Origin: Allomeiothermus silvanus DSM 9946
GTDB taxonomy: Bacteria; Deinococcota; Deinococci; Deinococcales; Thermaceae
NCBI RefSeq assembly: GCF_000092125.1
Contig: NC_014212.1
Coordinates: 248,001-312,000 of the forward strand
DNA: 64,000 bases
Reading direction: 5' to 3'
How positions within the stretch are numbered: the first letter of the stretch is position 1; the number at the start of each line of letters is the position of its first letter. Both the position numbers and the translations under genes were made by a program. Below, in pieces: positions 1,720 to 28,894 of the stretch. Under the pieces are notes generated by a model. It did not search any database, was not told the DNA's origin, and saw only the letters and a list, made by a program, of their open reading frames with translations.

Positions 1720-2544
1720 TTACTCGCCCGCCTGGAAGTTGCTGTAGGCCAGGTAGTAGGCGTTGGCCTTGGCGTCGTAGGTGAGCTTGAAGCGGGTGGG
1801 GTAGAGGGTCTTGCGGCCTGTCTTGGCCGGGCGGCTGACCTCGAGGTCGAGGTTCTGCTTCTTGAGCAGGAACTCGCGGGTGATCATGGGCTCGGTGAAG
1901 GTGTACTGCCCCTTGTAGAAGCCGGCGATCAGCACGTGGTCAAAGAGGCCGGGCTTGAGCTGGCCGGGGGCGCTGAACTCCGACATCGGCACGCCGTGGA
2001 AGCCCATCAGCGGCACGCAGAACTCGGCGGCGTTGGCGCCGGGGGGCACCGCGGGGGCGTAGCCCTTGGGGGTCAGCTCGAGCGCGGGCGGGGTCAGGTC
2101 CTTGCAGTCGATCTTGGCCACCTCGGCGGCGCTGACGCCGAAGAAGTGGAAGTCGAAGTGGGGGGTGAGGTAGCGCTCCGGGGGGTGGCCGAAGCCCTCC
2201 CACCACACCTGCACGTGGTCGAGGAAGGTGGTCTTCTTGACGGCCGCGGGGAACTCGAGGATCGCCTCGGGCCCGAAGCCGGGGCCGCCCTCGGCCTGGG
2301 GCTTGTCGTTGGGCCCGGGCAGCGGCGCTTTCTCCACCACGCTCATCGGCACGGTGATCCCGGCCTCGAGCACCTGTCCCTTGGCGTCGAGCTTGGCCCA
2401 GCTCGAGACCTGGCCGCCAAAGAGGGTCTTGGTCTGCCCCATGACGGTCTGCCCCTGGCCCTGGGCCATGACCTGTGCCGTCCACGAGACCGCGCCCAAC
2501 CCCAAAGCTGCTACCGTAATGCCTGTCCAGATTGCTTTATTCAT
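1720..2544 (-). CDS. secreted DUF5602 (TTHB210-like) protein
   Basis: 274 residues with a classical signal peptide: MNK, a hydrophobic stretch and an AQVMAQ cleavage region near residue 28. The body carries the HFDFHFFGV motif near residue 127 and a later MGFHGVPM segment, both typical of the DUF5602/TTHB210-like family of Thermus and Deinococcus. The repeated His/Asp in the first motif suggests metal binding, but the function is not known. In Thermus thermophilus a relative is controlled by an extracytoplasmic sigma factor; no sigma gene is seen here. A good Shine-Dalgarno (AAGGAGAGG) precedes the ATG, and a hairpin sits in the leader. Confidence 0.75.
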   Translation of the reverse strand: MNKAIWTGITVAALGLGAVSWTAQVMAQGQGQTVMGQTKTLFGGQVSSWAKLDAKGQVLEAGITVPMSVVEKAPLPGPNDKPQAEGGPGFGPEAILEFPAAVKKTTFLDHVQVWWEGFGHPPERYLTPHFDFHFFGVSAAEVAKIDCKDLTPPALELTPKGYAPAVPPGANAAEFCVPLMGFHGVPMSEFSAPGQLKPGLFDHVLIAGFYKGQYTFTEPMITREFLLKKQNLDLEVSRPAKTGRKTLYPTRFKLTYDAKANAYYLAYSNFQAGE

Positions 2545-2582: not shown

Positions 2583-2735
2583 GCGAGGATGAGGATAGGA
2601 GAGGGGTTGTGACTGAGCTGTGACCGGTCTGGAGGCTGCTCTACCCTGGCCGGTCACGGCCTCGATTCACAGCCGCCATGCGATGCGAGGCCTCCTCGGA
2701 GGGCTCGAGCGCCACGCCCGGCAGGTCGGGGCCGC

Positions 2736-5700
2736 TTAGCGGGGTTGCGCGGCGGCTTGCAGGATGGCGCGGTTGAAGGGGTTGTGCTCGAGGAAGCTCG
2801 AGCGGTACTGGGGGGGCACCCTCTCTTGGGCGATCTCGCGGAGCCAGGCGGCAGTCTCGGTGAGGTAGGCCGCTGCCTGCGGATCGCCGTTGGCCTGGAG
2901 CGCTTGGTAGTGGGTGAGCCGCACCTCCCCGGCGTAGAGATCGGGGGTGTAGGTCTCCAGGAGAGCAAGGGCGTTGCGGGTGTGCTCGAGCGCCTCGGCG
3001 GGGTGATCCAGGTGCAGCAGGGCTTGGGCGGCGAGGGTGTGCGCCGCGATCTCGAGCCCCTTGAGGCCGTATTGCTGGGCGAAGACCAGGCTTTGCCGGT
3101 GGGCCTTGAGGGCCTGGGCGGGGGGAAGCAGCCGGGCCTCTTCCAAGCGGAAGCGATACCCCGACAAGTTGGCCGCTTCCCCCAGCATGGGTCGGGCCCG
3201 GTTTAGCGGGGACTGCGGGTTCCGCCCGCTCCAGCTCGAGAGGCGGATCTGCTCTAGCCAGACCAACCCGGCCTCCTGGTAGGCCTCGGTGAACTCCTCC
3301 AGCGCCCGGTTGAGATAGCTCTGGGCCTGCTCGAACTGGCCTAGCTCGGTTTAATGTCCGAGCGAAGTTGCGGTAGAGGTCCTCCAGCTTCCAGTGCTGG
3401 TATCCCTCCACCATGGCTCGGGCTTGCTCAAGGTACTCCAACGAGCGCCGGTACTCCAGCAGGAGGCGGTGATGGTTAGCCAGGGAGGTCAGCACCACCA
3501 GATGAGCCCCGGTGGCCCCCTCGGTCTCGGCCAGCATCTCTCGGGCCCGCTCCAGGGTTTCCAGGGCTTCGCGGCTCCGCCCCAGTTGTCCTAAGCAGAT
3601 CGCCAGGTTGTTGAGCACCCGCCCCCGGGTGGTGCGGTCTTTTTGCAGCGCGAAAGCTTCCTGGAAGCGCTGGGCGGCTTCGGCGTAGCGGTTGAGCTGC
3701 TGGAGGGCCAGCCCCAGGTTGCTCAGCACGGCGGCCAGCAGGGTCTCGTTGTGGGTCTCCAAGCACAGCTCGCGGGCTTGCTCGAGGGCGGCTCGGGACT
3801 CCTCAAAGCGGCCCTGGCGGCGCCACACGATCCCTAGGAGGTTTAGAGGATCCACCTCGAGCCCCCGGTCGCCGGAGCGCAGCGCGTTTTCCAGGGCCTG
3901 CTGCGCTGCCCGTTCGCCCTCGGGGGTCTGCCCGCGGTGCAGGTGCAGGGTGGCCTGGTAGAGCCAGGCCCGCGAACTCGAGCGGGGGTCACGGGCCAGC
4001 TCGAGTATCTTCTGGGCTAAACGCTCGGCGCGGGCCCCGGTATCGAAGTCAAGGATGAACTCGCAGACGTTGAGGAGCGCTTCGGCGGCCTCAGTGGGGC
4101 GCTCCTGGCGTTCCAGCAGGGCCGCAGCTCGTTCATAAAAATCCGCCGCGTCGAAGAGGTGGTAGGTGGAGCGGGCCGCTTTGGCCGCTTCCAGCAGGAA
4201 GGGGACGGCCTTGCGCTCGTCGGCTTCCAACCAGTGCTGGGCGATGAGGGCGGGATCAGCCCCGATCATCTCTAGGTATTTGGCGGTGCGGCTATGCAAC
4301 ACCTGCTTGACCGCGGTAGGGATGCCTGCTAAGACCGCTTCGAACACCAGATCGTGGGTGAAGGCGTTGCCGCGCAGGATCTGGGCGGCCTCGAGTTCGG
4401 CGTGGCTCTCGGCCAGCTCCAAGCCCGAGCGCTCCAGCACCTCCTGGGCCAGCCCCAGCCCAAACTCGGTCTCGGCTACCGCGGCGGCCCGGGCCAGGTT
4501 CAAAGCCGCCGGGGTGAGCCGTTGCAAGCGGCGCTGGATCAGCGGGGCCACCCGACCAGGCGGGGCCAGCCGGGCCGGTAAGCCGCGCTCTAAGGTATCG
4601 GTCTCGATGAGGTGCTTGAGGGTCTCGAGGATGAATAAGGGGTTTCCCCCAGTGTAGCGTGACAGCCCCGCCGCCAGCCGGTCGGCTCCGGGCAGCTCGA
4701 GACCTTGCAACAGTGTCAACACCGAGTCCGGGTCGAGCGGCTCGAGTTCGATCAACACGCCCTCTCCTGTCTCCACGAACTGGGCGGCGAAGCGGTCCAT
4801 GCCCTCGGAGTTGTCCCCACTGCGGTAACAGCCGATATAACCGCGCAGCCCGCTAGGCCCCAGTGGCAGCACCGAACTCATCAGATAGGCCCCCACTTGG
4901 TTGCTGGAGGCGTCCTGAAACTGGAGGTCGTCGAGCAGCATAGCCTCGTGGTGGCGTACTAGGATGCTGAAGATCTCTCGGTGAGCCTCGAAAAAGCGGG
5001 CCTGCTGGAGCGGGCTCGGCTCGACGGGGGCAGGGCTCGGCCCCAGCTCGGGCATCCAGGGGGCCAGGGCCTGCCGCACCCAGTCCGGTAGGGGCTCGGT
5101 GGGATATTTGGCCAGAATCGCCCGCAGGTGGCGGAAGTTGGAGGAATAGGGCACATGCGGGTCACCGGGGCGGGCCTCGAGCCGGATATAGGAGCCTTTG
5201 TGCTCGAGAAAATCCGCGGCCAGGCGGCTCTTGCCCACCCCCGGCTGGCCCTTGAGAAAGATCAGCTTCCCCGCTTCCCAGGCCTCTTCCATCATGGCCC
5301 ATTCCCGTTCACGCCCGGCCAGCACCGGGGGCCGCAGGGTGGTGGCGGGGATCAGCGGGCTCTTGGGCTTTGGGGGGGCGTCGGGCAGGTGGGCGCCGGA
5401 CTCGATCATGCGCAGCAGCCGCAGAGTCTCCGGCAGAGGCTCGGCCCCTAGCTCCTGCTCGAGCATCGCCCGGCCGCGCTCGAGCGTGGCGAGCGCCGCA
5501 GCCCGGTCACCCAACAGGTACTGTAACCGCGCCACTTGCCGGTAGCTATCCTCGGAGAGCGGCTCCATGCGCAAGCGAATCTGAGCGTACTCGAGGGCCC
5601 CCTTAAAGTTCTCCGCCCGCTCCAGCCGGGTGGCCTCGGCTTCGGCGGCCTGGGCCCGCAGCTCACGGAGTTCGGCGCGGGTGCTCTCTACCCACTCGGC

Positions 5701-6072
5701 CAGCTCGGGAAGGTCATCGTGGTCGCTTCCCTTCAGAAAAGCCTCTTCCTGGCGCAGCTGGCTCAGGAAGGGCGATTCTAGGTAGGACCAGCGCCCCACG
5801 TCGGCCTCCACCTCGGGGGCTAGCTCGATCAGGTCCTCGCCCAGCACCACCTCGCCTGCCGCCATCCGCAAGCGGCGTAAGAGTTGGCGCATGTTGTTGC
5901 GAGCTGCGGTCTCGCCGGATTCCGGTCACAGCCACCCGGCCAGCTTGTACTTGCGGACCGGGCCTTCCAGGGCCAGGTAGGCCAGCACGGCGGCGGTTTT
6001 GCGCTCGAGTAGCAGGCTTCCCCCAGGGGTCTCGAGCCGTGCTGCGCCGAGCAGAAAAAGCTTATGGGTCAC
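2736..6072 (-). pseudogene. broken SARP/BTAD-ATPase-TPR transcriptional regulator
   Basis: Read from a GTG at 6070-6072 (gggag upstream), the frame gives a winged-helix start that matches SARP-type regulators up to LAGWL. It then hits TGA at 5926-5928, exactly where the conserved Trp of the LLWPE motif is expected (TGG to TGA). The same frame reopens at once with PESGETAARNNMRQLLRRLR. It continues through a BTAD domain, a P-loop (GQPGVGKS) of a STAND ATPase, a LLDDLQF Walker B-like motif, and many TPRs. Near 3350-3354 (TTTAA in the + strand) the frame shifts by one base: the TPR reading continues in another frame (LGQFEQAQSYLNRALEEF) to a stop at 2736. An uninterrupted gene would encode about 1110 residues. 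Two independent lesions make a pseudogene likely. An annotation starting at the internal ATG (5892) would miss the DNA-binding helices. Confidence 0.8.
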
Positions 6073-6408
6073 GTGGATACTCCCAAGTTCAAGCCCGGCC
6101 TGAAGGTGGTGGCAAAAAAAGGGGCCGTAGGATGTCTCGAGTATACGGGTAAGAGGCTGGAGCGGTCATGGACTAACTCTGATCAGAGCAAAGTAAGGCT
6201 CAATTCGAACCTCACCCGATTCTGCCTCAGGCCGCGCTGATTGCTCCCAGCGATGGTGGTGAAATCCCCGTGGCTGCACTCCTATTCTCGCCCTTTGAAA
6301 ACGGTCGTCGGTTTCCCGCTTGAAAGCACTTGGCTGGACTTTGGGGATGTCCTACTGCGGGAAAAATTTAGGGCGCAGTTTTCCACCGCGCCCCGGTTCT
6401 CGCTCCGT
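6073..6408. other. intergenic region beyond the nar operon
   Basis: About 336 bases between the end of the nar operon and the broken regulator. Besides the terminator at 6361-6393 I see no gene, repeat or convincing promoter. The region upstream of the regulator's GTG contains an A7 tract (6115-6121) but no clear -35/-10 pair. Confidence 0.5.
6361..6393 (-). terminator. Rho-independent terminator of the nar operon
   Basis: In the minus strand a 9-bp stem (GGGCGCGGT with ACTGCGCCC, one G-U pair) and a 5-base loop are followed by TAAATTTTT. It lies 16 bases after the stop of the last narK gene. Confidence 0.8.
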
Positions 6409-16713: not shown

Positions 16714-18699
16714 ATGAACCAGGTGCGCTGGCAGCTCGACAAGGAGGGCCGTATTGTGGCTTGGAGCCCCGAAGCTGCCGTGTTTTTCCGTCTTCCTGCC
16801 GAAGCGGTGCTGGGTAAGCGCTGCGCCGAGGTGGTAGCGGGTACTGACGGCTTTGGCCGTCCCTTGTGTGGGCGCTGCCCGGTACAACGAGAGATCCGGC
16901 GTGGAGCTTACCAGGCCAGTACAGCCCTCTCCTATGGCGGTAAGCGTCTGATCTGCCAGGGTTATGCAGGTAGGGAGATTGGTGTTGGGCTGAAGCCAGA
17001 GCGACAAACCGATGCGGGCGAAGTTCTGGCTTCGCTCTCTCGAGCGGTGCGCACCCTGACCGATGAACCTGGTCGCCTTTTCCAGACTCTACAGGTCTTC
17101 TTGGCAGGTTTACGCAAGAGCCTGAAGATGGAGGCCGCTGAACTTTTTTTGGCCGACCCGCAAGAGCGTCATTTGGCGCTCACCGCCTACGACGGGATGC
17201 ACCGCGAGGCCTTCATGGAGCGGCCCTGGTTTGCCTGGGGCGAGGGGTATCCGGGCTTGGTGGCGCTGGGCCACCAGCCACTCGTCACCCACGACTTAGC
17301 TTCGGACGGGCGTTACTTGCGGCAAAAGGTCAAGCGGCTCGGTTACAAGACTTATGTGTGTTATCCGCTCGAACTGCCCCGTCTTCCGGGGGAGCGTCCT
17401 CAAGGGCTTATCGGGGTGCTCGACCTGGCCAGCCAAGACCCTGAGGTGGACGATGCCGTCTTGCTCGAGCAGCTTGCCTTGATCAGTCCCGTGTTAGCCT
17501 CTTCGCTCTACGCTGTATTGACGCGGCTGGGCGAGAAAGGGCTGCTCGCCATCACTGCAGCTTTGCGCCAAGGTGCAGAGACCGAGGGCATCGAGGCGTT
17601 CTTAGCCCAGGCCACCGAACTCTCAGGGGCTTCCTGCGTGCGGCTGGTACTACGGGATGGGCGGAATCTGGTGCAGGGGCGTTGCGAACCTCCCAGGTGC
17701 GCCCAGGTCGGACGTTGCCCAGTCTGGATAGGCACGGCGCAGGGAGGCAGGATGGGCCTCGAGCCCTGCCCCTTCTCCCAGGATGTTCAGCCCCGTTATT
17801 GCTTACCCCTATGGTCGGGTGGGCAGGTGATAGGCGTACAGCAGTTTTACTTCACTCGGCAGCCACGGCCTCCTAGCCAAGCAGTGGCCCCAATCCTGTG
17901 GTTGGAGCGCTTGGGGGCTGAGGTGCTTTGGCCCCATTCAGACCAGGTAAAGAGAGAAGTGCCCTGGCTGGAAATTCGTACGTTGGGAACCTTACAGGTA
18001 CGGCGGGCAGGGGAGCTGCTTTCGACCAATGCTTTTGGCCGCCGTCGGGCCCTGACCCTTTTCGGGCTGCTCTTAGCCTATCGGGGCCGAACCCTGTCGC
18101 GCGAGGAGCTTTGCGATCGGCTGTGGCCAGGAGAGGATCCCGCTCTGACCATTCCCCGCTTCCACGTCCTACTCCACGGGTTGCGTCAGGCTTTAGAGCC
18201 CGATCCAGCCAGTCCGCGTGTGATCCTGCGGGAAGGGTCAGGTTATCGCTTCGCCCCACAAATCTCCTACTTCCTCGATGTTGAGCGCTTCGAACAACTG
18301 TTGCAGCAGGGCGACAGCCTGGACGGGCTAGCGGCCATGGAGGCTTATCGCCAAGCACTTGCCTTATACAAAGGTGACTTCCTGGCCGACGAGCTCTATG
18401 CCGATTGGGTCGAACTCGAGCGCTCCTATCTGCGCGAGCGGGCGGTGGGAGCTCTCTTCCGCGTTGCAGGAATCGCCGAGAGGATGCACCTAACCCAGGA
18501 GGCCCAGGAGGCCTACCGCCATATCCTTACCCTCGACCCCTGGCGCGAGGATGCCTACCGCGCGCTGCTCGGGATGCTGGTGGCTTCCGGGCAACACCGT
18601 GAGGCCCGCAGCCTCTTCACCCAGTACCGGGTGCGGATGGAGCGCGAGGGGTTGCCGGTTTCTACCGAGTTAGCCCAGATGGTGCACGTGAGCGGATAG
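16714..18699 (+). CDS. DnrS-like sensor/BTAD transcription activator of nitrate respiration
   Basis: 661 residues. Residues 1-95 look like a PAS sensor with C37, C52, C55 and C81 (CGRCPV). Residues ~105-270 are a GAF domain. A second GAF-like segment (~280-390) holds six cysteines between about 308 and 362 (GRCEPPRCAQVGRCPV, EPCPF, RYC). Residues ~424-515 are a winged helix (LRTLG-type start, LSREELCDRLWPGED), followed by a BTAD helical domain to the end. Thermus nitrate-respiration islands carry DnrS divergent to narC, and the position here is the same. The cysteines suggest redox, Fe-S or metal sensing; that is inference. The winged-helix motif RLWPGED is intact here, unlike in the broken relative at 2736-6072. 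Confidence 0.75.
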   Translation: MNQVRWQLDKEGRIVAWSPEAAVFFRLPAEAVLGKRCAEVVAGTDGFGRPLCGRCPVQREIRRGAYQASTALSYGGKRLICQGYAGREIGVGLKPERQTDAGEVLASLSRAVRTLTDEPGRLFQTLQVFLAGLRKSLKMEAAELFLADPQERHLALTAYDGMHREAFMERPWFAWGEGYPGLVALGHQPLVTHDLASDGRYLRQKVKRLGYKTYVCYPLELPRLPGERPQGLIGVLDLASQDPEVDDAVLLEQLALISPVLASSLYAVLTRLGEKGLLAITAALRQGAETEGIEAFLAQATELSGASCVRLVLRDGRNLVQGRCEPPRCAQVGRCPVWIGTAQGGRMGLEPCPFSQDVQPRYCLPLWSGGQVIGVQQFYFTRQPRPPSQAVAPILWLERLGAEVLWPHSDQVKREVPWLEIRTLGTLQVRRAGELLSTNAFGRRRALTLFGLLLAYRGRTLSREELCDRLWPGEDPALTIPRFHVLLHGLRQALEPDPASPRVILREGSGYRFAPQISYFLDVERFEQLLQQGDSLDGLAAMEAYRQALALYKGDFLADELYADWVELERSYLRERAVGALFRVAGIAERMHLTQEAQEAYRHILTLDPWREDAYRALLGMLVASGQHREARSLFTQYRVRMEREGLPVSTELAQMVHVSG

Positions 18700-19346: not shown

Positions 19347-19811
19347 CTATTTGATGAGCTTGTTCACGATCAGGCTGATCCACAGGGTGACCAATCCGGC
19401 AGCCAGCAAGCTGGTGGCCCAGGCGATCAGGGCATGTTTTCTCTTGGTGATGCGGGAGAGTTCGAAAGCCTGCTGGGCCACCTCGTCAAAATCGTCGCTC
19501 TGCTCGAGGGCCTTCTTATAGGTGGCGAAGTCTTTGAAGGCTGCAATATGGCCCCAGAAGATGGTGCCGTCAGGGTCGTTGGTAGACCTTGGGCGCACGC
19601 TCAGCACCGCCATGATGATTGCTGCCAGCAGCAAGAAGCCGGTTAGAACCACTAGGGCGATCTTCCAGGGTGGGAGGTCGGGTGGGGTGTCCCGCAACAG
19701 GGCGACGCCCAAGGTGGACAGGCCGGTGATAAATCCTGCTTTGGTATCTGCCAGTTGAATATTGCTGTAGCTGCTGTCCCGAATCTTCCAAGCGTGCTCG
19801 AGTTTATCCAT
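19347..19811 (-). CDS. PycTM-type (DUF5706) membrane effector 2
   Basis: 154 residues from the second of two adjacent ATGs (19811; the first is at 19814), with GAAGGAGGA and GGGGGAG upstream. Same order as its neighbour: LADTKAGFITG, hydrophobic segments, GTIFWGHIA, C-terminal helix. The two are clearly a tandem duplication, 97 bases apart in the same direction. They diverge mainly in the C-terminal helix and in the region after FWGHIA, where ligand or partner choice could differ. It is the gene nearest the divergent cyclase. Confidence 0.75.
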   Translation of the reverse strand: MDKLEHAWKIRDSSYSNIQLADTKAGFITGLSTLGVALLRDTPPDLPPWKIALVVLTGFLLLAAIIMAVLSVRPRSTNDPDGTIFWGHIAAFKDFATYKKALEQSDDFDEVAQQAFELSRITKRKHALIAWATSLLAAGLVTLWISLIVNKLIK

Positions 19812-19814
19812 CAT

Positions 19815-20096
19815 CTCCCCCGTCCTCCTTCAAGCAGACCTCCAGGCAGTTCGTTGGGTTCGATCGGGGAAGGTGCTCGCTTGGGTAATCTTCCGATCAC
19901 CTTAGATATTCACCATCGGGCCGTTGCTGCTAGCGCCACTTCCTACGAAAGCCTAACGGGCATGCGGCGGCTCCGCTTTAGCGCCCAAGTAAAAGATTCG
20001 AAAAATAGTATAGCCCAACTCGGGGCTGTCGAAATAAGGAAAGTCCGAGGTTCCGAGGTAGACTGGAGGGGCCAGGCCGAAGCGAGGCAAAAGACG
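19815..20096. promoter_or_regulatory. divergent control region of effectors and cyclase
   Basis: 282 bases with no gene of its own; the cyclase frame stays open leftward through it, but those codons show no family resemblance. TATAGC at 20011-20016 preceded by AAAAATAG is a possible rightward -10. It is noticeably less GC-rich between 19975 and 20040 than the coding DNA around it. No clear operator was found. Confidence 0.4.
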
Positions 20097-23000
20097 TTGA
20101 GCGGTTCACACCCCACCCCCCAGGGGCTCATAGAAGCCCTGGCGACCTATTTACCCATAGACCGGCAGCAGGCGCTGGCTGGGGGTTGGACGCTACCGGA
20201 CCGCACTCAGGGCGCGGCCTTGTCGGTGGACATCTCGGGGTTTACTGCCCTGACCGAAACCTTAGCCGAAACCCTAGGCCCCCACCGCGGAGCAGAGGAA
20301 CTCACCCACCGGCTCAATGCCATCTACGATGCCCTGATCGCCGAGGTCCACCGCTATGGTGGCAGCGTGATCGGCTTTAGCGGTGACGCCATCACCTGCT
20401 GGTTCGACCAGGACGGTGGGTCGCGGGCGGTTGCCAGTGCTTTAGCCATGCAGGCCGCCATGCCCCAGGTCGGGACGGTCGCGCTGCCCGAGGGCACCTC
20501 GGCGCAGCTGGCCATTCGGGCAGCAGTGGTGCGAGGTTCAGTGCGCCGCTTTTCCCTAGGCGACCCGGCTATTCAGCGGATGGACGCCATCGCTGGGCGG
20601 ACCCTGGACCTCCTGGCGGAGGCCGACCACTTGGCGGAACCCGGTGAGGTGGTGGTGGCGGAGGGGGTCGAGGGGCTGGGTGAGCTGATTGAGGTCTCGA
20701 GCTGGCGCGGCGATCCTCTAGGCGAGGTGCGGGTAGGGTTGGTGGGTGGCCTGCGCGAGCCGGTCACCCCTCATCCCTGGGCGCCGCTGACCCCGGCTGC
20801 TCTGAGCGAGGGCGAGGTACGCCCCTGGGTCCTCCCGGCGGTATACGAGCGTCTGCGGCGCGGGCAGGGCCAGTTTATGGCCGATTTGCGCCCGGTGACA
20901 GCGCTCTTCTTGGCCTTTGCAGGGGTGGCCCCCGACGAGGATGACGACGCGGGAATCCTGCTCGATGCCTATATCCGGCGGGTTCAGGCTACCCTCGCCC
21001 ATTACGAGGGCACCTTGGTACAGCTCACTTTTGGCGACAAGGGCAGCTACCTTTACGCAACTTTCGGGGCCCCGGTGGCTCATGACGACGACGCGCTCAA
21101 TGCGGTCAGCGCGGCCTTGGAACTGCTCAAGCCTCCGGCCAACCTGAGCTTTATCCGTTCGGTTCATATCGGCATCACCCACGGCCAGATGTACACCGGG
21201 GCTTATGGCAGTGCCCAGCGCCGCACCTACGGGGCCTTGGGTGACAAGACCAATTTGGCGGCCCGGTTGATGCAGCAGGCCAAACCCGGCCAGATCCTTT
21301 GCGACGAGGAGGTCTACCAGCAAGCTCAGCGGCGGTGGACTTTCGAGATCCTCCCCTCGGTGCGGGTCAAGGGCAAGGCCGGGAAGATCCGGGTGTACTC
21401 GCCGACTGGGCAACCCGCCGGAGAAAAGCCCGAGCCTCCTGCCGAGAAAGCGCTGGTGGGGCGTAAGGAGGTAGTGGCCCGGTTGCAAGCCGCCCTCGAG
21501 GCCCTCAAGGCGGGACAGGGGCAGGTTTTGTTTATCGAGGGTGAGGCGGGTATCGGCAAGACCCGGTTGGTGCAGGAGTTGATCCGCCGCTTGCGTGAAC
21601 TGGGGCTCAGTGGACTCCTGGGTGGCGGGCACAGCATCGAGCAGCAGACCCCCTACCGGGCCTGGCGCGATGTCTTCGCCTCCTATTTCGCACTGGAGGG
21701 GCTAAACGATCCGCTCGAGCGCCAGGAGCGGGTTAAGCGGGTGGTGCAGGAGATTGCGCCCAAGTTAACTCAGCGTTTGCCACTTCTCAACGACCTGCTC
21801 AACCTGGGTCTGCCTGATACCCCGCTTACTGCTGCTTTGGATCCGGCTTTGCGGCAAGAGAGCTTGGTGGCCCTTTTGATTCAGCTGTTGCGGGCGTGGA
21901 CCCAGGAGCGCCCGCTGACCCTCATCCTGGAGGACGCCTACTGGCTGGATAGCCTCTCCTGGGACCTGGCAGTTAAGGTGGCCAAGGCCCTGCTGGGATC
22001 GGGCGAGCCGCTCTTGCTGGTGATGATCAGCCGCCCCATCAGCGAGCAGGGTTTGGGAGTGCAGGCTGCTAGTGCCCTACGGGGGATGCCGGGCAGCGAG
22101 ACCCTGGAGATCGGGGCGCTGGACGTGGAGGAGACCGCCGAGCTGGTGGCAGCCCGCCTGGGGCTGCCGGTCGAAAAGCTGCCCCTCCCCTTGGCCCGTT
22201 TCGTGCGCGAGCGCTCGGGAGGAAACCCCTTCTTCTCGGAGGAACTCACCTACACCCTGCGGGACCGGGGGCTCATCAAGCTGGTCGGTGGCCCGGCCTT
22301 GGAGATCGACCCCAAACTCTTCCGCACCCATTCGATCCTGCCTGACACCCTCCAGGGCCTGGTTTTATCGCGCATCGACCGCTTGCCCCCCGATCGCCAG
22401 CTCACCCTCAAGATCTCCTCAGTTATCGGGCGCAACTACCCCTACCCTCCGCTGCGCGACAGCGTGATGCGGCTAGCTGCCTTGGGCGAACCGTTGTTGC
22501 GTCAGCACCTGCAAGAACTCATGCACCGCAGCCTGATTCTGCTCGAGGCTCCTGATCCTGAGCCGCTCTATGCCTTCAAACACGCCATCACCTACGAGGT
22601 GACCTACCAAAGCCTCTTGTTTGCCCAGCGCCGCCAGATTCACCGGATGCTGGCAGAGTGGTACGAAGAAGTCCATGCTGCCGATTTAGCCTCGGTCTAC
22701 CCGCTCTTGGCCCATCACTGGATGCACGCTGCTGAGGGGAGCGGGGATCCAGCGCTCACCCTGCGGGCCAAGGGGTTTCTGGCGAAAGCGGGTCTGCGGG
22801 CGTTGCAACTTTGCGCCTACCCCGAGGCTCTGAGCTTTTTGCAGCGGGCGCTGGCCCTCACCCCGGCTCTCCCCGAGCAGGCCCTCGAGCGGGCCGGGCT
22901 CTTGGTCTCGATCGGGATCGCCCACGAGAAGCTAGCTGACTACGCCGCCGCCACCCTGGCCTTGCAGGAGGCGCTCGAGCTGGCCCGCGTGGTTCCCGAC

Positions 23001-23858
23001 GCCCAGACCGAAAGCCAGGTCCTGTCCGAACTGAGCTGGATCGCCCTACGCAAAGGCGAGTATCCCCAGGCTGAAGTGCTGGGCCAGCGAGCACTTGCGC
23101 TGGCTCAGCAGGCGGGGGACAAGTTAGCTAGCGCCAACGCGGGCTCGCGGCTGGGTATCCTGGCTTTTTACCGGGGGGACTATCCCCTGGCAGTCCAGCG
23201 CTTCCAAGAGGGGCTGAGGCTATCCCAGGAGGCTGGGGACCCCTACCGGATTGCCGGGAACCTCAACAGCCTGGGGTTAGTCGCCATCTACCAAGAAGAT
23301 TACGCGGCGGCTACCCGCTACTTTGAGGAGGCGTTGGCCATCGCCCGGGCGCTGGGCAACCGTGAGGCGGTGGGGAAGTTCCTGACCAACCTGGGTCTGG
23401 TTGCCGAGCGGCAGGGGGACTATCCTTTGGCCATCCGGCGCTATGAGGAAAGCCTTGCCATCCTACGCGAGATCGGGGCTCGCCACGCGGCCCTGCTCAA
23501 TGTGCTCAACCTGGGCGACGTGGCGACCGCTCAGGGCGATGACGAGGCCGCCGGGCGCTACTACCTGGAGGTGCTCCCAGAAGCGCTGGCCCTGGGGGCT
23601 TTGCACGTGGCGTTGGGCACAGTACGAGGGTTGGCCGGGGTGCAGGCTCGAGCAGGGAACCACGCTCAGGCGGCGAGGCTGATCGGACTGGTGCTGAGCC
23701 ACCCGGCCAGCAGCGCAGAGGAGCGTTCGTCCGCGGAGCCGATCCTTACCTTCCTACAGGATAGGCTCCCCGCAGCAGCGCTCGAGGCCGCCCTGGCGCA
23801 GGGCAAAGCGTTGCTTCTGGAAACGGTCGCTGAGGAACTGGTGACCCTGCGGCACTGA
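20097..23858 (+). CDS. sAC-like tandem class III cyclase with STAND ATPase and TPRs
   Basis: 1253 residues from TTG 20097; an upstream open frame to 19755 exists but overlaps the effector gene. C1 domain (~38-215): VDISGFTALTE with metal Asp45, GFSGDAI with metal Asp97. C2 domain (~265-435): FGDKGSYLYATFG with Lys315, and GDKTNLAARL with Asn386 and Arg390, the transition-state pair. C1 therefore supplies the metals and C2 the Asn/Arg, as in animal soluble adenylyl cyclase, whose motifs (VDISGFTAMTE, FDKGCSFLCVFG, KVNLAARM) it matches closely. Then an ATPase with P-loop GEAGIGKT (~482-489) and LILEDAYWLD, and from ~900 repeated TPRs to the end. Such proteins sense a signal through the TPR/ATPase half. 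The product (cAMP, cGMP or a pyrimidine) cannot be read from sequence. Divergent PycTM genes suggest it makes their ligand. Confidence 0.85.
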   Translation: MSGSHPTPQGLIEALATYLPIDRQQALAGGWTLPDRTQGAALSVDISGFTALTETLAETLGPHRGAEELTHRLNAIYDALIAEVHRYGGSVIGFSGDAITCWFDQDGGSRAVASALAMQAAMPQVGTVALPEGTSAQLAIRAAVVRGSVRRFSLGDPAIQRMDAIAGRTLDLLAEADHLAEPGEVVVAEGVEGLGELIEVSSWRGDPLGEVRVGLVGGLREPVTPHPWAPLTPAALSEGEVRPWVLPAVYERLRRGQGQFMADLRPVTALFLAFAGVAPDEDDDAGILLDAYIRRVQATLAHYEGTLVQLTFGDKGSYLYATFGAPVAHDDDALNAVSAALELLKPPANLSFIRSVHIGITHGQMYTGAYGSAQRRTYGALGDKTNLAARLMQQAKPGQILCDEEVYQQAQRRWTFEILPSVRVKGKAGKIRVYSPTGQPAGEKPEPPAEKALVGRKEVVARLQAALEALKAGQGQVLFIEGEAGIGKTRLVQELIRRLRELGLSGLLGGGHSIEQQTPYRAWRDVFASYFALEGLNDPLERQERVKRVVQEIAPKLTQRLPLLNDLLNLGLPDTPLTAALDPALRQESLVALLIQLLRAWTQERPLTLILEDAYWLDSLSWDLAVKVAKALLGSGEPLLLVMISRPISEQGLGVQAASALRGMPGSETLEIGALDVEETAELVAARLGLPVEKLPLPLARFVRERSGGNPFFSEELTYTLRDRGLIKLVGGPALEIDPKLFRTHSILPDTLQGLVLSRIDRLPPDRQLTLKISSVIGRNYPYPPLRDSVMRLAALGEPLLRQHLQELMHRSLILLEAPDPEPLYAFKHAITYEVTYQSLLFAQRRQIHRMLAEWYEEVHAADLASVYPLLAHHWMHAAEGSGDPALTLRAKGFLAKAGLRALQLCAYPEALSFLQRALALTPALPEQALERAGLLVSIGIAHEKLADYAAATLALQEALELARVVPDAQTESQVLSELSWIALRKGEYPQAEVLGQRALALAQQAGDKLASANAGSRLGILAFYRGDYPLAVQRFQEGLRLSQEAGDPYRIAGNLNSLGLVAIYQEDYAAATRYFEEALAIARALGNREAVGKFLTNLGLVAERQGDYPLAIRRYEESLAILREIGARHAALLNVLNLGDVATAQGDDEAAGRYYLEVLPEALALGALHVALGTVRGLAGVQARAGNHAQAARLIGLVLSHPASSAEERSSAEPILTFLQDRLPAAALEAALAQGKALLLETVAEELVTLRH

Positions 23859-24835: not shown

Positions 24836-25504
24836 GTGGAGGCGTCTGCGGTTTTAGCCCAAAGCCCGCTGTTCCGCGGGCTCGAGAGCACCGACTTGGT
24901 GGCCCTTGCGGCAGAAGCCCGCTTCCGCTCGCTTGCCAAGGGGCAGACCCTTTTCCTCCAAGGCGATCCGGTAGACGCGCTCTACCTGGTGGCGCGGGGG
25001 CTCATCAAGGTGTACCGCTTCGATCCCAAAGGGGGCCGTCAGGTGGTGCTGCACCTGGAAGGCCCGCACCAAGCGGTGGCAGCGGTAGCGGTGTTTCTCG
25101 AGCAACCCTATTATCCGGCCTCAGCAGAGGCACTCGAGGATACCCTGGTACTTTCTATTCCCCGAGAGGCCTTCGATCGCCTGGTGGACACCCGAGCATC
25201 CCTCGCCCGCGCCGTCATCCGCTTTTTGGCCAAGCGCCAGAGCCAGCTGGTACACCTGCTGGACCGGCTGGTCTTTGCTGAAGTCGGATCGCGGCTGGCC
25301 GAGTATCTCCTGCAGCGCGCCGAGGCCGAAGGCCCGGGCTTTCGCCTACCCACCAACCCCGAACTGGCCGCCCTGCTGGGTACGGTGCCCGAGGCGGTGA
25401 GCCGCAAGCTAGGACAGTTTTTCCGCGAAGGGCTGATCGAGGTGAAGAAGCGGCAAGTGTGGGTGTTGGATGCTTCAGCCTTGCGGGAGATCGCCGAGGG
25501 GTGA
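24836..25504 (+). CDS. Crp/Fnr-family transcription regulator, DnrT-like by context
   Basis: 222 residues: cyclic-nucleotide-binding-type beta barrel (~8-120), long dimer helix (~125-150), and an HTH with LPTNPELAALLGTVPEAVSRKL (~170-192). There are no cysteines at all, so it is not an Fe-S sensor like FNR. The phosphate-binding Arg of true cAMP receptors is missing from the VFLEQPYYPAS segment, so it is unlikely to bind cAMP in the usual way. A heme or allosteric partner as in DNR proteins, or DnrS as in Thermus, are alternatives. Two 5-4-5 boxes nearby (25514, 28881) are its likely targets. GTG start. Confidence 0.75.
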   Translation: MEASAVLAQSPLFRGLESTDLVALAAEARFRSLAKGQTLFLQGDPVDALYLVARGLIKVYRFDPKGGRQVVLHLEGPHQAVAAVAVFLEQPYYPASAEALEDTLVLSIPREAFDRLVDTRASLARAVIRFLAKRQSQLVHLLDRLVFAEVGSRLAEYLLQRAEAEGPGFRLPTNPELAALLGTVPEAVSRKLGQFFREGLIEVKKRQVWVLDASALREIAEG

Positions 25505-27797: not shown

Positions 27798-28600
27798 TTA
27801 GTTTCCTTTCTCGATCAGCAGCTCGACTTGGCCCGGGCCAAGTTCACGCAGGGCGTAGGGGTGGCCCTCCTGCTCCAGCCGTGCTAAGAGATGCACTGGG
27901 CGGCGCACGTGGTGCACCAGCAGGCGCTGGCCGGGCTCGAGGCGGGCCAGCGCCTCCAGCACCCGCATCATGGGCAGGGGGGCTCGAGGTTTTCCTCGAG
28001 GAAAACCTCGGCCTGGTAGCCCGACCAATCGGCATCGCCCAGACCCCCTGCCCTAGGAGCCGAGCGGGCCCCGGCAGCCCCGGGGAGGCGGTAGAAGTGG
28101 GCTCGGTAGTGCTCCTCCTCGAGCCGTTCGCACCAACCGGCGAAGCCCTGCTTGGCCAGGGTCCGGTAGAGGGGGAGAGGCTCGAAGAGGACCTCGAGGA
28201 CGAGCCGCTCCCCAGGGCTAACCGTGCGGGCCGCGGCCATGATCTTCCCAAAGGGCTCGCCCCCGGCCTCGAGGATGGGCCGCACGTCCAGGTGGGCACC
28301 CACCGGGGCGGTGAGCCAGGGGGGCGGGGAACTACCCACCCTGCTCTCGTTCCCAGCAGGGGCTTGTGAAGGGGGTTCCGCCTCCTCCCCTCCCAAGGCC
28401 CGGTTGAGTCGCTCGACCAGGGCAGCGGGCTCGAGCCCCCCGATGCGCGCGGCCTGGGCCACGCTCACCAGCCGGGGCATGGTGCGGCGCAGCAGGGGGT
28501 TTTTGAGCTTGGCGAAGGCTGGGCTGGCCTCGATGAGCACCTCCAGCAACTCGGGGTGTTGCTCGAGCAGCTCGCTCACCTTCATTTCAGGCCGGATCAT
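27798..28600 (-). CDS. DUF1858-DUF2249 protein with a frameshift at a C6 run
   Basis: The first frame (from ATG 28600) gives DUF1858 (MKVSELLEQHPELLEVL), a linker and one DUF2249 domain, and stops at once after LEPPCP. The expected second DUF2249 core, LEPPLPMMRVLEALARL, appears in another frame and runs to 27798 (QVELLIEKGN). Adding one C to the CCCCCC run at 27977-27982 restores a single ~267-residue protein. DUF2249 resembles the TusA/SirA fold (PPxPMM replaces CPxP). Seen often with denitrification and NO-response genes. Real mutation, slippage-decoded gene, or sequencing error are all possible. Confidence 0.7.
27985..28010. repeat. 26-bp perfect palindrome inside the DUF2249 gene
   Basis: CGAGGTTTTCCTC followed by its reverse complement GAGGAAAACCTCG, with no spacer. 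On the mRNA it ends 2 bases before the C6 run where the frame breaks. Confidence 0.7.
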
Positions 28601-28603
28601 CCA

Positions 28604-28834
28604 CTATCCCTTCTTGCGGATCCTCACCCGCCAGGTCTCGGGGCCTTGCTCCAGATACTCCCAGCCGAACTGCTCGGGGCGCTCGGCGCTGAACTGGTAG
28701 AACAGTGGCTTGGGGTCGTGGTCGTTGACCAGCTCGAAGGCCTGGCCGTCCCCGAGGCTGTCGAAGAGGTGGAAGATCCTGGGGTGGCGCTCGCGCGGGG
28801 GGATGCTGCGGACATCAAGTATCTGGATGGGCAT
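28604..28834 (-). CDS. DUF2249 protein
   Basis: 76 residues from ATG 28832-28834, chosen because GAGGTGA lies 6 bases upstream; the frame extends to 28894 but that would run through the FNR box. Core: LDVRSIPPRERHPRIFHLFDSL, then ELVNDHDPKPLFYQF, a full single-domain DUF2249. First gene of the operon leading to the two ferredoxins, 3 bases before the next ATG. Likely cytoplasmic; function unknown beyond its recurrent company with NO and nitrate genes. Confidence 0.75.
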   Translation of the reverse strand: MPIQILDVRSIPPRERHPRIFHLFDSLGDGQAFELVNDHDPKPLFYQFSAERPEQFGWEYLEQGPETWRVRIRKKG

Positions 28835-28880
28835 GAAGTTCACCTCGGCTTCAGTGTGGGGAGGAGCGGCTTTTTTAGCC

Positions 28881-28894
28881 ATGACCTGAGTCAT
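28881..28894. promoter_or_regulatory. FNR-type box between divergent genes, class II position
   Basis: ATGAC-CTGA-GTCAT, a perfect 5-bp dyad. Its centre (28887.5) is 41.5 bp before the ATG at 28929, identical to the box at 25514, and 53.5 bp before the leftward ATG at 28834. The flank TCATGGCC is shared by both boxes. Confidence 0.7.

Follow-up and report, generated by a model that had tools for sequence, protein, structure and literature searches.

A probable recent pseudogene of an AfsR-type regulator in M. silvanus DSM 9946 and a predicted operator of its putative regulon

Introduction

When a gene for a large transcriptional regulator carries one in-frame stop and one change of reading frame, is it dead, is it misread, or does a part of it still serve the cell, and what becomes of the promoters that it once controlled? 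These questions are raised by a locus in Allomeiothermus silvanus (hereafter M. silvanus) DSM 9946, whose genome comprises 3,721,669 bases in three replicons, and we addressed them within a window of 64,000 nucleotides (C1:248001-312000). The gene is, very probably, a recent pseudogene of a large activator of the AfsR type, and the promoters nearby point to a candidate operator. The features discussed are collected in Table 1.

Table 1. Features of the window, and one plasmid gene, that bear on the broken regulator
Feature	Position	Strand	Remarks
Broken AfsR-type (SARP-AAA-TPR) regulator gene	2736..6072	-	Runs from GTG to TAA
Opening 48 codons, up to the TGA; DNA-binding domain begins here	5929..6072	-	Alignment to EmbR and AfsR made via relatives
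In-frame TGA	5926..5928	-	At a Trp column of aligned relatives
Frameshift zone	3347..3361	-	Net +1 base vs C. chliarophilus; longest homopolymer three A
C-terminal coding remnant	2739..3347	-	Shifted frame; 55% identity to orthologue
Shine-Dalgarno-like GGGAG	6080..6084	-	7 nt ahead of GTG 6072
Mechanical ORF from internal ATG	2641..5892	-	1083 aa; BTAD, AAA, TPRs, out-of-frame tail
Sigma-70-like promoter match, upstream of regulator	6140..6169	-	1 found vs 0.5 expected by chance
Terminator-like hairpin, past transporter gene	6370..6394	-	Scan: 4 found vs 3.1 expected
Predicted operator GTCACA-N5-GTCACA	2608..2624	-	Direct repeat, 11-bp pitch
-10-like TATCCT	2592..2597	-	10 nt past the repeat
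TTHB210-like gene (PF18197), predicted target	1720..2544	-	Intact; 96% identical to C. chliarophilus protein
DnrS-like gene	16714-18699	+	PAS/GAF and BTAD
DnrT-like gene	24836-25504	+	CRP-type by eye
DrpB-like gene	27968-28600	-	DUF1858 and DUF2249
DrpA-like gene	28604-28894	-	DUF2249
Plasmid BTAD/AAA/TPR regulator	L032:5185-8175	-	996 aa

The Lesions and the Reading Frames

On the minus strand, the translation at the stop reads ...KLAGWL*PESGETAARNNMRQLLRRL..., with the TGA at 5928-5926, and the orthologue in Calidithermus chliarophilus reads KLAGWLWPDSGE at the same place, its tandem copy reading RLAGWLWPDSGE. The column of the TGA is occupied by Trp in 10 of the 11 aligned relatives, the eleventh (L020) being unreadable there because its chosen frame runs through an assembly gap, and this Trp is invariant in a profile of eight intact N-termini. 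L020 had at first appeared to be broken at its N-terminus, and a tblastn search reduced this to a 100-N gap only. Read against these relatives, the TGA interrupts the DNA-binding domain of the M. silvanus gene. The initial annotation had placed a Trp-to-stop change within a conserved LLWPE motif; the change of Trp to stop stands, the local variant of the motif being WLWP(D/E). Downstream of the stop, the frame is open from 5925 to 3361, and reading resumes at 3347 in a different frame that ends with the TAA, in agreement with a one-base shift that had been proposed near 3350, the net gain of one base being measured against C. chliarophilus copy 1. The comparison with the orthologue finds Trp in both C. 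chliarophilus copies and, in copy 1, a single frame across the shift zone, the M. silvanus frame being interrupted where the aligned orthologues are open. Each of the two copies spans a 100-N assembly gap, away from the lesion positions, and the full intactness of copy 1 is hence unproven.

The GTG start at 6072 is supported by the Shine-Dalgarno-like element ahead of it. The regulator gene comes after the nar transporter genes, from which it is set apart by a hairpin resembling a terminator and by a match resembling a promoter, both near chance frequency, and the hairpin suggests a transcription unit separate from that of the transporter gene.

Reads of the 454 type are prone to indels. Such reads were used in the genome project, along with Sanger and Illumina reads, toward a finished sequence for which the genome paper, in its available text, states an error of <1 in 100,000 (PMC3035272). 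An error in the deposited sequence at one or both lesions, with the gene itself intact, would also be in line with a protein without clear sign of relaxed constraint, but the stated rate translates into about 0.03 errors expected in 3.3 kb, making two errors in one gene unlikely, and the nonsense change is a substitution outside any homopolymer, while the frameshift lies beside a run of only three A. We therefore consider such errors improbable.

Recoding, in which the TGA would be read through or decoded as Trp or selenocysteine and the frame corrected by a programmed shift, has in its favor that 1105 codons hold a single stop and a single shift, and read-through had been offered initially as the alternative to decay. 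We find it the least credible of the readings considered. The genome has no selA, a tRNA-Sec model gives two hits over its cut-off that are tRNAs for Ser and Leu, prfB is present and ordinary, and shuffled sequences fold about as well as the region of the TGA (z +0.59), and on these grounds selenocysteine or other recoding was rejected. Moreover, no slippery homopolymer is found at the frameshift zone, the orthologues have Trp at the TGA column and a single frame, and read-through of the TGA would leave the frameshift uncured.

The Class of the Encoded Protein

Judged from its domains, the intact gene encodes an activator of the AfsR-type large SARP class, with an OmpR-like winged helix and a BTAD, followed by an AAA (STAND/NOD-like) ATPase and TPRs. 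In the 1083-residue ORF, Pfam models recognize BTAD, AAA_16 (residues 191-339) and TPR_12 in three stretches, so that an AAA/NOD ATPase is followed by TPRs, as expected of large SARPs of this type, and BTAD was found in all eight intact members. The order of an OmpR-type DNA-binding domain and a BTAD follows from a comparison of the profile of the eight N-termini with the PDB, in which the matches to EmbR (E 4e-7, profile positions 6-228) and AfsR (E 1.2e-6, positions 24-227) extend over both parts. Pfam winged-helix models gave no match in the intact relatives, and a phmmer search with one sequence retrieved TPR proteins for the most part, AfsR and EmbR both being absent from its hits. When modelled, the N-terminus of the C. 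chliarophilus protein has AfsR and EmbR at Foldseek ranks 1-4, but the model is poor over residues 1-100, and the class assignment thus leans on the profile match. AfsR itself was considered and rejected, the NCBIfam AfsR equivalog model scoring 35.9 bits against a cut-off of 1430. Literature searches gave nothing on the M. silvanus regulator gene among the entries listed, and a search for a Thermus thermophilus SARP with tetratricopeptide and AAA parts found no paper.

Relatives and the Age of the Damage

A scan of the genome collection revealed one close relative, C. chliarophilus DSM 9957, whose locus (L009) has two tandem copies of the regulator, at about 5.8-8.9 kb and from 12.7 kb onward. 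In a search of M. silvanus and 12 relatives, matches at E <= 1e-100 occur in 5 of the 13 genomes, with close orthologues only in C. chliarophilus; the other listed matches, among them an intact paralogue in M. silvanus (L002), are 39-44% identical. The dS between the regulator and its C. chliarophilus orthologue is 0.67-0.90, resembling that of nadE, the sole control gene (0.65), and both are thus plausibly ordinary orthologues. In the C. chliarophilus nadE match (L040, G006:C3:645043-645897), one TAG is reported within the match span.

Codon, relative-rate, and nonsense-count tests support a recent decay, as initially proposed. With C. chliarophilus copy 1 as the reference, the segment ahead of the stop has an omega of 0.35, the two parts between the lesions have 0.38 and 0.28, and the C-terminal remnant after the shift has the highest value, 0.57, and the third-position G+C in three segments is 0.79, 0.83, and 0.89. 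In relative-rate tests with nine outgroups, the M. silvanus sequence is not significantly faster than that of C. chliarophilus with eight, and barely faster with the remaining one (p = 0.047, uncorrected), two of the relatives (L012 and L020) still crossing assembly gaps in the corrected ORFs used. Likewise, at outgroup-invariant columns each of the two proteins deviates at 10 of 87. The 1105 codons hold no more than one nonsense hit, which limits neutral substitutions per site to 0.036-0.043 or less, and this cap, set against the dS of 0.67-0.90, together with a normal-looking constraint and no clear excess of rate, argues for recent decay.

These same values bear on a protein restarted at the internal ATG, which would function although unable to bind DNA, perhaps as an ATPase with a signalling or inhibitory role. 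An ORF from this ATG does exist, as had been predicted of an automatic annotation; it begins inside the predicted third helix and is without most of the DNA-binding domain, and it retains BTAD, AAA, and most TPRs, with constraint still visible. However, no Shine-Dalgarno-like element precedes ATG 5892, the last TPRs are replaced by an out-of-frame tail through the frameshift, and omega before the stop (0.35 against copy 1 and 0.23 against copy 2) is about that between the lesions, fitting function of the whole gene until recently. A working truncated protein is thus at least as doubtful as an error in the sequence, and slightly more so. The gene very probably became a pseudogene recently.

Bacterial genomes often contain broken regulator genes. 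For M. silvanus DSM 9946, 158 pseudogenes are counted in the available text of the genome paper (PMC3035272), and the loss described here is an ordinary, well-supported recent pseudogene. It is the predicted operator and regulon that are worth following.

A Predicted Operator and a Small Regulon

The gene next to the regulator, on the same strand, is TTHB210-like, and such a gene also follows copy 1 in C. chliarophilus. In both species the intergenic region between the two holds the direct repeat GTCACA-N5-GTCACA. The exact repeat occurs twice in the M. silvanus genome, five times in that of C. chliarophilus, and not at all in two other genomes (G001 and G002), the reversed pattern, as a control, occurring once in C. 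chliarophilus and in none of the other three. At seven of the seven exact repeats TANNNT stands exactly 10 nt downstream, which holds for no other spacing from 0 to 34. With this element included and up to one mismatch allowed, two sites are found in M. silvanus, seven in C. chliarophilus, and none in four other genomes, the reversed control giving none in all six. All seven C. chliarophilus sites are located at C3:484-498 kb, around the regulator copies, the seventh, with one mismatch, about 280 bp upstream of another site, and they precede TTHB210-like, NmrA-like, two cupin-like, and two likely lipoprotein genes; unlike the first of these labels, those of the NmrA-like, cupin-like, and lipoprotein genes were read from the sequences by eye. 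The second M. silvanus site precedes a gene for a lipoprotein-like protein of 138 residues (C1:3.007 Mb).

The direct repeats that SARPs bind have, as described, an 11-bp pitch, the last one standing 8 bp from the -10 element (PMC10936776, available text), compared with 10 nt from hexamer to -10 in the predicted site, a layout that is close but not identical to the base. A link between the regulator and the repeat is predicted from their co-occurrence in the two genomes. We tentatively propose, with confidence that stops somewhat short of an even balance, that GTCACA-N5-GTCACA-N10-TANNNT serves as operator for an AfsR-type regulon of the Thermaceae not described before, and that the sole activator of this regulon in M. 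silvanus has only just disappeared, leaving both promoters and their targets still intact. The predicted members would be the TTHB210-like protein, lipoproteins, cupins, and an NmrA-like protein. By analogy with AfsR (PMC10936776, available text), a dimer of the intact SARP domain would bind over the -35 region, at the GTCACA repeats, while the activity of the protein would be set by its ATPase and TPR parts. The bound activator would recruit RNA polymerase to two genes, the TTHB210-like one and the lipoprotein gene elsewhere, and, with the activator now lost in M. silvanus, both operator promoters and their genes would persist; the loss has probably orphaned a small regulon. Intact relatives and a promoter pattern allow an operator, and with it a small regulon, to be predicted for an activator of the AfsR type outside the actinomycetes, in a family of thermophiles, and, if this is true, target promoters are visible just after the loss of their activator, a regulon caught while being orphaned.

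TTHB210-like Genes Elsewhere

The TTHB210-like gene of the window differs from its C. chliarophilus counterpart (L024) by a dS of 0.12, compared with 0.65 and 0.46 for nadE and narG and with 0.67-0.90 for the regulator next to it, and this low value suggests that this gene alone was probably exchanged recently between the two genera. Its protein has no sequence match in the PDB at E <= 0.1, and a literature search found no paper naming TTHB210. Four other promoters of TTHB210-like genes (L030, L031, L033, and L034) have a direct repeat of another sequence, likewise with an 11-bp pitch (TATAACG or TTTAACRCC type), about 46-84 nt ahead of the start, possibly reflecting SARP control with another specificity, as judged from near matches of a kind that can arise by chance. 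A third M. silvanus locus with a TTHB210-like gene, on the larger plasmid (G000:C2, L032), is without such a repeat and has a BTAD/AAA/TPR regulator upstream on the same strand. A regulator of this kind is found upstream in three of the seven TTHB210-like loci.

The Nitrate Respiration Neighborhood

A role in nitrate respiration, suggested by position, was considered and rejected as the main reading. In C. chliarophilus the pair of the regulator and the TTHB210-like gene lies at C3:481-485 kb, far from narG at C3:1.34 Mb, and, with Calidithermus being one comparison only, the broken gene is probably not a nitrate regulator. In a direct profile comparison, the C. chliarophilus N-terminus matches a DnrS homologue weakly (E 0.073). 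The window does encode DnrS-like and DnrT-like proteins, whose genes are separated by about 6 kb, a stretch that includes a large cyclase/AAA/TPR gene (19755-23858).

Comparison with Known Systems

Four known systems lend themselves to comparison. In Thermus, as far as the available text of its description goes, drpA and drpB come immediately after the last of the nar transporter genes (PMC6282519), and the broken regulator gene holds this position in M. silvanus, whereas the Drp proteins (DUF2249 and DUF1858) are unrelated to it; the DrpA-like and DrpB-like genes of the window are about 22 kb from the nar end. DnrS, the activator of nitrate respiration in T. thermophilus, is likewise a BTAD regulator encoded beside nar genes, but it has a GAF sensing domain, in contrast to the AAA and TPR parts of the broken regulator, whose C. 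chliarophilus orthologue is located away from narG, and dnrST is bicistronic there, while the DnrS-like and DnrT-like genes are separated in the window.

EmbR of Mycobacterium tuberculosis, with its winged helix and BTAD, is the best full-span profile match in the PDB; its solved structures have a chain of 388 residues, in some entries together with a phosphopeptide, and it is not known to have the AAA and TPR parts found in the M. silvanus regulator. AfsR of Streptomyces coelicolor, a large SARP (SARP-NOD-TPR), shares the domain order, and structures of AfsR match the N-terminal profile, but the regulator described here is a protein of the Thermaceae, with its gene broken and its NCBIfam AfsR score far under the cut-off. 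The predicted GTCACA operator also differs in sequence from the afs box. The likeness would extend to layout, the predicted operator consisting, as in the available description of AfsR, of two direct repeats with an 11-bp pitch just upstream of the -10 element (PMC10936776).
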